From Planctomycetota bacterium (GTDB lineage Bacteria > Planctomycetota > MHYJ01 > JACQXL01): a stretch of DNA of 64,000 bases. The position numbers were made by a program, and so were the translations under genes. Positions 1-57,678 of this stretch are shown here, piece after piece. Within the stretch, counting starts at the first letter, position 1, and each line of letters opens with the position of its first letter. The stretch spans positions 434,001 to 498,000 of the forward strand of contig JACRIK010000003.1 of the NCBI GenBank assembly GCA_016235865.1, in the 5' to 3' direction. A model generated the notes under the pieces. The model saw only the letters and a program-made list of their open reading frames with translations. It did not search any database and was not told where the DNA came from.

Positions 1-468
1 GGCGTTGTTGGACAGATTGCTAATGCTCCGGATAATCCGGCTGAGCGCTTCTTCGTCCGTTTCAGTATTTAACGCCCTAAGTAGGTATGGCCGGGCTGTT
101 TCGTCTTTTATCATCCCCAATACCCACGCGGTATAAAACCGCTGGTTTTTGCTTTTGGGATTATTTAATGCCACGGTAACCAGATAATCAACGGCATTTT
201 TGTCGGTAAAATCGCCCAGTATCATCAGGGCGGATTCCCTGACCGGGGATTCTTCGTCGTCAAAAAGCGCCACCAGTATCATTGCCGCGTCTTTAGAGTT
301 GTGTGCTTTTAGCTTGTTAATTGCTTTGAGCCGATCCCAGTAATTAGCATATGACTTGTCCGCCAGGGTCTGCTTTATCTCGGATAAATCATCGGTTACG
401 CCGAAGAGAGAAAAAACAGCAACCATTAAGGATATACAAAACAGAAAGGTGTATTTGGATTTGGCCAC
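1..468 (-). CDS. HEAT-repeat protein, 3' part cut by window edge
   Basis: The frame is open from a GTG at 468 to base 1, so the C-terminus lies outside the window. The protein begins MAKSKYTFLFCISLMVAV, a likely signal peptide. It continues with degenerate HEAT-type helical pairs (for example residues around DAAMILVALFDDEESPVRES and AVDYLVTVALNNP). A GGATGG ribosome-binding site precedes the GTG. It starts 26 bp after the WD40 gene on the same strand, so the two are probably co-transcribed. An exported scaffold role is inferred from the repeat fold; no enzymatic motif is visible. Confidence 0.75.
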   Translation of the reverse strand, partial: MAKSKYTFLFCISLMVAVFSLFGVTDDLSEIKQTLADKSYANYWDRLKAINKLKAHNSKDAAMILVALFDDEESPVRESALMILGDFTDKNAVDYLVTVALNNPKSKNQRFYTAWVLGMIKDETARPYLLRALNTETDEEALSRIIRSISNLSNNA

Positions 469-53668: not shown

Positions 53669-54649
53669 TTATTTTACCTGTTTTGCTTCCTCCTTTTTGG
53701 CTTGGGGCCCCCAGCCGATGGTTGCCCCAATTCTATTGTACAATTGATTATATAAATCCGCCTCATCTTTCCAGTCAATATGTTTATACTGTCGGGTATC
53801 AAAGTGAGCATCTTTCATACAATCCTGACGACAGGTATATATAACCGGAATATCCAATCCTTGAGCAAATCCGGCCTCAAAATAAACCCCGCCTCTTTGC
53901 CCAGTAAAATCTGCTACCAGAAATCTGCTTCTTTTTATTTCGGCGATGATTTCATCGTCTATCTTGCCCAGAAATTCCTTTTTGTCTATCCTTCTGGGCT
54001 CATAACCGGCATCTGTTATTGCCTTTTGGAAACCATTTTTATAGACATTATCCATAGATGAATCAAACCACATAGCCACGAATCCCTGGCGGGATTCTGG
54101 ATTGACCTTATCCAATTCATAAATACGGTCAAACCCCTTGGCGGTTATGTATATTGTTCTTCTGGAACCTTGTCGCGTGGTTTCTCTCGTATAATCCAGT
54201 TCTTTTAAGGCCTCTAATACTGCCGTAAATTCTTGCATATTAACAGCATAAAAAATAGCTGGCAATTCATAATCAACAATAATTGGCTGTCCGAAATGCA
54301 TGGAAAGTTTCCCCAGGTTTTGTAAAGCCCGATTTAATTTCTTATCAACACGTTTAGGAAACTGGTCTAATATCTCGTCAATGGTAATGAACGGAATGCC
54401 GTTGAAATCATTCTGGGAGGGCTTCTTATCGGTTAATGCGAGAGGGCTTTTTTCCGTTAGATAGCGTGACATAAGATAAGAAGCAATGCGTGTTTTATCT
54501 TCTGGAGATATCGCTCCAAGCGAAATCTTAAATACGTCGCTCGCTAAATATTTTCCGCAACTATCACACTGATATACATAAACAGCCGTATCTGGCCATC
54601 TACGAGTTTCTTTAGTTTGCTGATTACAAAACAGGCAGTTTGTGCTCAT
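53669..54649 (-). CDS. Zn-ribbon protein with deoxyribosyltransferase/TIR-like C-terminal domain
   Basis: 326 residues. The N-terminus has CLFC and CDSC pairs (a zinc ribbon). A middle helical region is followed by a Rossmann-like domain (about 188-300) starting GFVAMWFDSSMDNVY. It has EIKRSRFLVADFTGQRGGVY and the motif FEAGFAQGLDIPVIY, as in nucleoside 2-deoxyribosyltransferase-like and TIR-like proteins, where the Glu is catalytic. Proteins of this type occur in anti-phage loci as NAD+ or nucleotide-degrading effectors. The abiE pair lies just upstream, on the same strand. Confidence 0.75.
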   Translation of the reverse strand: MSTNCLFCNQQTKETRRWPDTAVYVYQCDSCGKYLASDVFKISLGAISPEDKTRIASYLMSRYLTEKSPLALTDKKPSQNDFNGIPFITIDEILDQFPKRVDKKLNRALQNLGKLSMHFGQPIIVDYELPAIFYAVNMQEFTAVLEALKELDYTRETTRQGSRRTIYITAKGFDRIYELDKVNPESRQGFVAMWFDSSMDNVYKNGFQKAITDAGYEPRRIDKKEFLGKIDDEIIAEIKRSRFLVADFTGQRGGVYFEAGFAQGLDIPVIYTCRQDCMKDAHFDTRQYKHIDWKDEADLYNQLYNRIGATIGWGPQAKKEEAKQVK

Positions 54650-54661
54650 TATAAAAACTCC

Positions 54662-55603
54662 TTATTTCATATTTTTTAGTCGCCAGAGCAGGTTGGGATG
54701 TTTCAGGATATCAGACGTATATTTATATGTTCCAAAGAGCAGTTTGGGTTTAACCTGTTTCTTATAAAACCCATCTATAAACACTTTTTCATCTTTGTTA
54801 AATATCAGGATTGACTTGATGAATTGGTTGACGATTTTAATTGCCGTATCAAATTTGAGTTTCTCCGCCTCGCGAAGCAGCGGACGAACCATTTGTTCAA
54901 AGCCACGCTTGTTAATATCTGCGCCTTTGAATTTAATCAGTTTCCTGAAGTGTTCTTCTTCCGTACATCCGGTCCAAACCACGAGTTTCCTTAAAAGGTC
55001 TTTATCATACAGGACTATATTTTGCGCTATTTTATAAACATCATAAAAATCTCTTGGTTGCTGGCGATTCAGGAAGGTAACTATCTTGCTGGCAAGCAGT
55101 TCCTCCAAAACCAAGGTATAAACATTGAACTTAGGTATTACTTCAAATAGCTCGGTTTTGAAGGGCAGGCTTTTCTTCTCTAATATCGGTAGGCGGTCAA
55201 GCCAATTAATATCTGTCTTAACTTCCGCATTGCTACCCCAAAGGTTTGGATATTTAAGAATAAATTGATGGGAGGCGTGACCTCTATCCCTTCCTATAGA
55301 TTTATATCCTAATCCGGATACTAAATCATGGATTTCCTTAAGTAAAGCCGGTTTCTGCGCTTCCATTGCTTCTTTTTCCAACGCGCCAATAAAATCCAAG
55401 TCAATATCAACCGAGAGACGCGGAATATCTGAATGAATGAAGTTTAATGCCGTGCCGCCCCGGAGCAGGAATTTATCCCTTAAAACAGGCGATTCGGTTA
55501 TCCGTTTAAGCAGGACGGTCAGGCGCCAGACCTTTTCCAGATTGTCTTTTGCAAAGCCGGTCTGGGCCGACTTTTTCTCAAGATACTTTTTGTCTGGTTG
55601 CAT
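54662..55603 (-). CDS. abiEii: AbiEii-type nucleotidyltransferase toxin
   Basis: 313 residues from the ATG at 55603; a frame start at 55636 would overlap the antitoxin gene more. LLRGGTALNFIH and SVDIDLDFIG give the nucleotidyltransferase Gly motif and metal-binding Asp pair of the AbiEii/AbiGii family. Type IV toxins of this kind block growth, in some cases by adding nucleotides to tRNA. The coding region overlaps abiEi by 26 bp, the usual antitoxin-toxin order. Confidence 0.9.
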   Translation of the reverse strand: MQPDKKYLEKKSAQTGFAKDNLEKVWRLTVLLKRITESPVLRDKFLLRGGTALNFIHSDIPRLSVDIDLDFIGALEKEAMEAQKPALLKEIHDLVSGLGYKSIGRDRGHASHQFILKYPNLWGSNAEVKTDINWLDRLPILEKKSLPFKTELFEVIPKFNVYTLVLEELLASKIVTFLNRQQPRDFYDVYKIAQNIVLYDKDLLRKLVVWTGCTEEEHFRKLIKFKGADINKRGFEQMVRPLLREAEKLKFDTAIKIVNQFIKSILIFNKDEKVFIDGFYKKQVKPKLLFGTYKYTSDILKHPNLLWRLKNMK

Positions 55604-56876
55604 ATTGGTATTTGTTAACAAGGTATTCCGGGACAATCAGATTCCATTCTTTAATTTGTTCGCCTGTCCCGCGGGCAAGCTTGGGCGGCCAGTAATATTT
55701 CGCCCGGCTGATGTGTTTCTTTATATTATCGAACACCTCTGGCTCCACCTTCCAGTTAGTTTCAAACAACCTAAGTAAAAACCCGGTCTTGGCATAAAGC
55801 GCTTTTTCATTAAACCGAGCGAGATATTCAATTAATCGCTGTATATCTATAAAAGCGCCTTCTGCGGGAGATACAATGTTTTTGCCCACATTAGATAGCA
55901 CATATTGTAGGAGGTCGTTAAATTCTTTATAATTCAAAATCGTTTCGGCCAACGTTACTTGTGTCCCCTGGCCGTCGGAAGAATTATAAATGGGGCCCGC
56001 TGAAAGGATAAGCGGCAAAATACGTTTTATCCGTTGCGGGTCTTCGCTTAAGTCGTTAGCAATAACAATATAACTATGCTGTTGTTCGGGATTCTCTTTG
56101 TATTTCACTCTAAGATATTGATATATCTTTTCCGCTACCTTAATATCTTGTTGGGCTTCGGGCAACGGGCAATAAAACAGTCCTACTAAAGACAGCTCAT
56201 AGCCGTTTCTTCCTGGCTTGATAATTCCGCTGTTGACCAAATGGTTAATGTCTGGGATTCTGGTCTCCCAATCAGCCCGGAATTTATTAACCGTTGGTGC
56301 TTCATTCTGGTTAATGGTATGTTTGTATATGACGGCTAATAAATCTGTGCCGCGTAACCCTTCCAAGGAGCGAATAAGTTCGTCCACACCGCCGGCCAGG
56401 TCCGGCTGGCGTAGGCAATCCAGAATAGTGCGCTCTATATCCGTTACATTAATAACCTGTCCTTCGCGAATAAGGGTTGTGGCGCCAAATAGGTCTTTCG
56501 TGAATCGCCATTTGTATTCTATTCCTTGATGAGCAAACGAGACAAACCGGTGCGGAGAGGAAATATAGACCCGGTTAAAAACCGACTGACCGATGCCGTG
56601 TAATTCCAAGGCCGAATAATAAGAAATTGCATACGGTTCCGAGACCCGGCTGGCCACCAGGAATTTATCCGGCTGATAGTCCTTTCCGACAAACTCTATC
56701 GGCACCAGCGCATAAAGCCCCCGGCGAATCTTCTTAAGATAACCACCTTGATTTAATCTGGTCAATTCCTGGGCGGTTTGATATTTATCCTCTGTGACGG
56801 ATAAAGCATCATTGGTAGTTATTATTGCCTTGTCTTTTAACTTCTCGTATAGGTTAGGATAAAGTTTTGGTGACAT
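55578..56876 (-). CDS. abiEi: AbiEi-type antitoxin/transcriptional repressor
   Basis: 432 residues, longer than the roughly 200-residue streptococcal AbiEi. The N-terminus has a winged helix (about 15-65, ALSVTEDKYQTAQELTRLNQ). A central AbiEi antitoxin domain contains EPYAISYYSALELHGIG and TDIERTILDCLRQPDLAGG. The extra C-terminal region (about 215-432) is helical and of unknown role. It is expected to repress its own promoter and neutralise AbiEii. A strong promoter with a palindrome in its spacer lies 56 bp upstream. Confidence 0.9.
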   Translation of the reverse strand: MSPKLYPNLYEKLKDKAIITTNDALSVTEDKYQTAQELTRLNQGGYLKKIRRGLYALVPIEFVGKDYQPDKFLVASRVSEPYAISYYSALELHGIGQSVFNRVYISSPHRFVSFAHQGIEYKWRFTKDLFGATTLIREGQVINVTDIERTILDCLRQPDLAGGVDELIRSLEGLRGTDLLAVIYKHTINQNEAPTVNKFRADWETRIPDINHLVNSGIIKPGRNGYELSLVGLFYCPLPEAQQDIKVAEKIYQYLRVKYKENPEQQHSYIVIANDLSEDPQRIKRILPLILSAGPIYNSSDGQGTQVTLAETILNYKEFNDLLQYVLSNVGKNIVSPAEGAFIDIQRLIEYLARFNEKALYAKTGFLLRLFETNWKVEPEVFDNIKKHISRAKYYWPPKLARGTGEQIKEWNLIVPEYLVNKYQYATRQKVS

Positions 56877-56931
56877 ATAATATAGTTGTTAATAACGCAT
56901 TTAATTATACATATAAACCACTCTTGGGTGC

Positions 56932-56960
56932 ATTATAAACAACTGTTAGTTGTTTGTCAA
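56932..56960 (-). promoter_or_regulatory. Consensus abiE promoter with operator palindrome in the spacer
   Basis: On the minus strand: a perfect -35 TTGACA (56960-56955), a 17-bp spacer and a perfect -10 TATAAT (56937-56932). The whole spacer is the palindrome AACAACTGTTAGTTGTT (56938-56954; arms of 7). Further half-sites are AGTTGTT (56884-56890) and AACAACT (57002-57008). A repressor bound there would block RNA polymerase, as expected for AbiEi autoregulation. Confidence 0.85.
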
Positions 56961-57000
56961 GCATTTTATTATACATTATTTGATAAATTTACTGCATTAA

Positions 57001-57678
57001 GAACAACTGGATTCTTCAATATTTGAAAAAGTCAACATAGCTTATTAGTAGTACTAAACACCTCCGGCCATGTTTGGAAGGCGTTTTTTCCTAAAACACC
57101 ATATTTTCTCATATAGTAAAATAGGCGTTTTAAGGAAAATAATGCCCTTATCGTGCTTATTGTCAACATAAAACAGGGGTTTTGTCAACATAATCCCGGT
57201 TTGTTGTCAACATAAACGGCTAAAGCCCCATTTTGGCAACCTTGCTTGCCAAAAAAGGCCTCGTTTGGCAAGCGTCCTTGCCAAAATCAGCTAAACATAC
57301 CTCTAAATCAAGCAGGGTTGACTTGTAATACCAGAAGTTCACCTAAGTCAACCTGCCTTATCTTAGCAGGCACTTCTGTGTCGATCTGCTTGCACTGAGC
57401 GTAGCGAATGTGTGGTTCTACCTATTTTATCTGAATTCCCATTTTAGGTGTCACAAAACGCCCCTTGGCTGAATGAGAGGGTGAGAGAGGAGGACGTTAA
57501 AGGTCCTGTGCAGGCCGGCCGGCAGGGACCGATGACGGACTCCAACTTTCCTCCCTAACCCATGCGGGTGGGGAGAACCTCATTAACCTTAGGGCAAGGT
57601 AATCCCGCCATTCGGCGGGATGTAAGAGTTTGTAACTCGCTTCGCTCTAACAAACGCTAACAAAGGGGGTGATAAAAT
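57001..57678. other. Gene-free repeat and hairpin region upstream of the tail-like genes
   Basis: No gene seen. It includes 22-bp array 4 (57160-57225) and TTGGCAA/TTGCCAA inverted pairs (57233-57252 and 57265-57284, a 32-bp repeat). A row of hairpins follows at about 57504-57665: GGTCCTG/CAGGGACC, ATCCCGCC/GGCGGGAT and GTTTGT/ACAAAC. AGGGGGTGAT then precedes the next ATG. Confidence 0.7.
57160..57225. repeat. 22-bp-phased array 4 (three units)
   Basis: TTGTCAACATAA begins at 57160, 57182 and 57204, exactly 22 bp apart, while the second half of each unit differs. It is too short to judge the phase further, but it repeats the 22-bp period of arrays 1-3. Confidence 0.7.

Follow-up and report, generated by a model that had tools for sequence, protein, structure and literature searches.

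The abiE locus and its promoter

The minus strand of the window, by which we mean the whole 64-kb stretch of planctomycete DNA analysed here, carries an AbiEi-family gene recognised by PADLOC and, adjoining it downstream and overlapping its end, a DUF1814 nucleotidyltransferase gene (PF08843), for which an ATG at 55603 offers an alternative start (Table 1). Judged from its genes, abiEi-abiEii is a predicted type IV toxin-antitoxin pair, the type to which AbiE belongs in that the antitoxin counteracts a bacteriostatic toxin that it does not contact directly. A further gene on the same strand (53669-54649) begins 12 bp past abiEii and may be a third member of the operon; its C-terminal part matches a PADLOC model of a TIR-type effector (1.3e-10).

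The N-terminal part of the AbiEi protein (residues about 8-183) is AbiEi-like, and in studied relatives this domain is a winged helix, while the product as a whole had no Pfam match. Relatives are usually 270-280 aa long and are without the insert in the C-terminal part, which spans about residues 193-340 (~150 aa), is common to L006/L035 only among the aligned proteins and has no Pfam match either. An AlphaFold2 model of AbiEi built from two sequences was poor (mean pLDDT 42.7) and did not confirm the winged-helix fold, and the family profile matched the S. agalactiae AbiEi structure 6y8q weakly (E 0.068). The closest AbiEi homolog (G146/L006, 38% over residues 35-430) is encoded in a genome of the same class as the source genome.

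Table 1 Positions of genes, promoter elements and predicted operator parts at the abiE locus
Feature	Positions in window	Strand	From abiEi ATG	Content or match
abiEii, predicted nucleotidyltransferase toxin	54662..55636	-		324 aa from TTG; Pfam PF08843 4.1e-29; PADLOC PDLC02305 3e-80
abiEi, predicted antitoxin/autorepressor	55578..56876	-		432 aa; PADLOC AbiEi PDLC02269 6.8e-49, residues 8-175
Gene-proximal operator unit (predicted)	56884..56944		-68..-8	61 bp; converging half-sites a and b
Half-site a	56884..56899	+		AGTTGTTAATAACGCA
Half-site b	56929..56944	-		AGTTGTTTATAATGCA; holds the -10 box
-10 box	56932..56937	-	-61..-56	TATAAT
Spacer, junction of the two units	56938..56954	-		17 bp, AACAACT-AAC-AGTTGTT
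Upstream operator unit (predicted)	56948..57008		-132..-72	61 bp; converging half-sites c and d
Half-site c	56948..56963	+		AGTTGTTTGTCAAGCA; holds the -35 box on the opposite strand
-35 box	56955..56960	-	-84..-79	TTGACA
Half-site d	56993..57008	-		AGTTGTTCTTAATGCA

Upstream of abiEi, the minus strand contains the promoter TTGACA-17-TATAAT (56960..56932; -84 to -56 bp from the ATG), which matches the consensus at 12/12 positions and agrees in letters and coordinates with what a sequence-only reading had reported. This promoter type is real in the source genome, because 33 exact copies of TTGACA-16..18-TATAAT occur there, as against 4 of the reversed pattern. The same reading had described the spacer as the palindrome AACAACT-GTT-AGTTGTT, and an exact match at 56938-56954 bore this out, with a central triplet that reads AAC on the minus strand and GTT on the plus strand. 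AACAACTNNNAGTTGTT was found without mismatch at this sole place in the window, and exactly at one place in the whole source genome (2,670,679 bases). Transcription is expected to start at about 56925, downstream of the palindrome, and a transcript hairpin or attenuator was therefore rejected as the palindrome's role.

Two tandem units meet in the promoter spacer

The arms of the palindrome recur on both sides of it: AGTTGTT has further copies at 56884-56890 and, inverted, at 57002-57008, and the four places at 56884, 56938, 56948 and 57002 account for 4 of the 10 occurrences of AACAACT on both strands of the window. Each AGTTGTT opens a 16-nt half-site, AGTTGTTnnTnAnGCA, in which repeat analysis and alignment showed 12/16 columns to be alike in all four copies. 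The half-sites follow one another along the plus strand as a(+), b(-), c(+) and d(-), with the AGTTGTT ends facing outward in each unit, and form two tandem 61-bp units with a gap of 3 bp and a period of 64 bp, so that the block measures 125 bp (-132..-8). Taken as ~23-bp boxes, inverted repeats overlap the abiEi promoter, and the 61-bp units with their converging half-sites span both the -35 and the -10 box. Because all four AGTTGTT copies extend into half-sites arranged in this way, the spacer palindrome is, by its anatomy, the back-to-back junction of two predicted operator units and not a single operator. The two flanking half-sites of the sequence-only reading are indeed present at 56884 and 57002, but as the far ends of the two units.

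On its own, a perfect 7-bp inverted repeat is unremarkable, with 99 in the window and 0.7 expected per 400 bp of comparably AT-rich sequence. When an equidistant outer pair of the same 7-mer is added, the expectation becomes 1.7e-6 per 400 bp in a rough first-order estimate made post hoc, and on this four-copy expectation we rejected a chance palindrome. Among nine further columns, five are alike in all four half-sites (binomial tail 1.6e-6, likewise post hoc), and exact AGTTGTT-N6-GCA occurs 10 times in the source genome, four of them inside the block.

Published AbiE operators have a similar plan

Repression by an antitoxin of its own operon, through repeats lying over the promoter, is a well-known idea. 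S. agalactiae AbiEi binds TGTTGCTTTTA-N27-TAAAAGCAACA, which has the -35 inside, and represses; extended, this operator becomes a pair of 23-bp repeats separated by 3 bp (PMC3985639). The AbiEi of S. suis also has two such repeats, IR1 and IR2, as its binding sites (PMC11062541). Four 23-bp repeats within -1..-131, with 13 bp within pairs and 4 bp between pairs, are bound by M. tuberculosis Rv2827c, and this binding is negatively co-operative and tightest at the outermost boxes, IR1 and IR4 (PMC7319586).

The planctomycete block has the four-repeat arrangement of the Rv2827c type: drawn as 23-bp boxes, it comprises two repeat pairs with 15 bp within and 3 bp between them, against 13 and 4 bp in Rv2827c, a comparison of geometry (PMC7319586). 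The block and its counterpart before Rv2827c-Rv2826c both have four boxes in two pairs over ~120 bp, overlap the promoter and end near the start codon, whereas the promoter is predicted within the gene-proximal pair IR3-IR4 in Rv2827c and lies across the pair junction in the planctomycete (PMC7319586). With S. agalactiae abiE, the block shares outward-facing box ends and a promoter within the repeats, and it differs in having two 61-bp units instead of one 49-bp unit and in that the S. agalactiae box itself supplies the -35, TTGCTT (PMC3985639). The S. agalactiae 11-mer TGTTGCTTTTA agrees with half-sites a-d at 7, 8, 7 and 8 of 11 positions in the same register and orientation; as background, among 1582 places in the intergenic region, 20 have 7 or more matches and 3 have 8 or more. 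In the open literature, searched by titles and abstract openings, we found no publication on this planctomycete AbiE operator. The kind of operator is already known, and the promoter placed across a unit junction is a modest variation of it.

Planctomycete relatives share geometry more than letters

Relatives were gathered by protein similarity alone. Of 294 genomes in the phylum, 42 had an AbiEi match, and an extra search that started from the L014 protein matched 7 genomes out of 298, 4 of its 7 loci being new and usable. L058, whose start codon could not be placed, was excluded from the counts, L056 is the same as L014 and L061 the same as L008 and each was counted once, and the relatives' start codons were picked by eye except in L059, L060 and L062. 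A short-peptide scan for close relatives gave the G146 contig as its sole hit among genome contigs and no hit among viral contigs. Matches in plasmid and phage collections (53 records and 1 record) were all partial, each with less than 80% of the AbiEi protein covered.

A four-arm arrangement beyond shuffles (p<=0.033) was found in 11/30 AbiEi upstream regions, our own locus among the 11, versus 4/46 control upstreams (Fisher 0.004), the controls all being taken from the window, where some ORFs are perhaps not genes, and compared with 60 shuffles each as against 200 for the AbiEi regions. The other 19 of the 30 had no four-arm arrangement by this test. Upstream of the closest protein relative, L006, no such block was found (four-arm p 0.46). 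That region has, at about -40 to -12, TTGACC-17-TATACT with a short 11-bp palindrome, TAGATAATCTA, in the spacer. In another AbiEi group (L019, L020 and L021), two short inverted repeats recur with a period of 73-74 bp, about one helical turn longer than in our block; those of L019 and L020 have GTGCC-type boxes.

With boxes anchored by hand, 61-bp units were seen in L014, L057, L059, L060 and L062, while L010, L016 and L008 showed weaker ones. Exact ACTTGA...TCAAGT pairs measured 61 bp end to end in 6 of 11 combinations, in 4 of 16 upstream regions, and the other 5 cross from one unit to another or involve an additional box. The hand-anchored gene-proximal units extend from -70/-71 to -10/-11 in 7/8 relatives, compared with -68 to -8 in our block, and in L057 the units start at -134 and -70, giving the same period of 64 as ours, with one of the four half-sites degenerate. 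The first five loci are thus like ours in having 61-bp units, which end at about -10 in 4/5, and unlike it in the box (ACTTGA against AGTTGTT), in the 3 to 21 bp between units and in a -35 that lies inside the box wherever it is recognisable. In several relatives the best -35 is TTGACA or TTGATT in the left box, at -68 in L008, L010, L016 and, as judged by eye, L057, and at -59 in L014; ours, at -84, is 16 bp further upstream than in several of them.

The geometry is common to the relatives and the letters mostly are not, because a matrix made from 28 half-sites of the relatives does not single out our half-sites, which rank 22, 47, 98 and 272 of 1556. The claim of 61 bp rests on the anchored boxes: an unanchored scan of unit length over 16 relatives peaked at 57-59, with 61 ranking fifth, a histogram of short inverted pairs peaked at 25-29, and a k-mer clustering test did not single out 61 bp.

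A model of AbiEi autorepression

On these comparisons, the 125-bp block is very probably the operator-promoter of the abiEi-abiEii operon, in which AbiEi would fill the four half-sites AGTTGTTnnTnAnGCA of the two 61-bp units and regulate its own operon negatively. Autorepression by AbiEi at the block is well supported by analogy, because the same gene pair and the same operator plan are found in experimentally studied systems. In the model we propose, the N-terminal domain of AbiEi, the presumed binder, would occupy four half-sites in two tandem units with the promoter laid across their 3-bp junction, such that the -35 falls inside the upstream unit and the -10 inside the gene-proximal unit, which would cover the -10 and the sequence on down to -8. 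Filling either unit would hide one core promoter element and so turn the operon off, which would give a graded negative autoregulation. Half-sites a and d would presumably be filled first, because in Rv2827c the outermost boxes IR1 and IR4 bind tightest (PMC7319586). Autoregulation by AbiEi, as the sequence-only reading had it, stands as the best explanation, with a gene pair and an operator plan as in two studied systems, and its anatomy needs correcting in one respect, the spacer being a unit junction; polymerase would be excluded by filling of the units over the -35 and the -10, and not by one protein bound in the spacer.

The older picture, in which one AbiEi dimer sits on the 17-bp spacer palindrome and excludes polymerase, with the outer copies as auxiliary half-sites, is unlikely. 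It can point to a central palindrome that is perfect over its 7-bp arms and placed between -35 and -10, but the likeness of the half-sites continues past the spacer into the hexamers (12/16 columns), and the boxes of S. agalactiae and of the relatives converge over 49 or 61 bp instead of standing back to back. We consider it very unlikely that the four sites serve a regulator other than AbiEi: AbiEi is assigned to them by analogy and their letters differ from those of the relatives' boxes, yet the block is single in the genome, lies directly before abiEi and has the plan published for AbiEi proteins. Scarcely credible, finally, is a passive remnant with no regulatory role, left by a 64-bp tandem duplication or by one end of some mobile element. 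The direct repeat at 64 bp (40/61 identical between the units) and other repeats close by at 57157-57216 would fit such an origin, but identity between the units is higher in the half-sites (26/32) than in the centres (14/29), and tandem duplication does not create inverted symmetry inside each unit; on this symmetry, and with the nearby 22-bp repeats tandem nowhere else in the genome, a mobile-element remnant was rejected.

Autorepression by AbiEi through two units would carry the four-box AbiE operator, known from M. tuberculosis Rv2827c, into a further phylum, here in combination with a clean consensus promoter. We tentatively raise the possibility, which we think rather doubtful, of a junction-type AbiE operator, in which tandem units of a fixed 61 bp stand with the promoter 16 bp upstream, each over a different core element and either sufficient alone, and in which a pair of AbiEi molecules measures 61 bp, at least in planctomycetes. 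If so, one unit would be enough for shut-off, unlike in relatives whose box supplies the -35, and the recurring 61 bp would be the distance that the AbiEi pair measures, in planctomycetes at least. The locus would make a simple system, since the units, one over the -35 and the other over the -10, are separable by mutation, which would make it easier to distinguish positive and negative co-operativity in the binding of AbiEi.

Repeats upstream of the block

Further upstream, at 57157-57216, GTCAACATAA (TATGTTGACA on the minus strand) is repeated at 22-bp spacing, with a fourth, shorter copy at 57031, and no other tandem of GTCAACATAA was found in the source genome; these repeats are perhaps sites of another regulator. 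Several clustered copies of TTTGGCA/TTGGCAA inverted repeats lie at 57230-57290.
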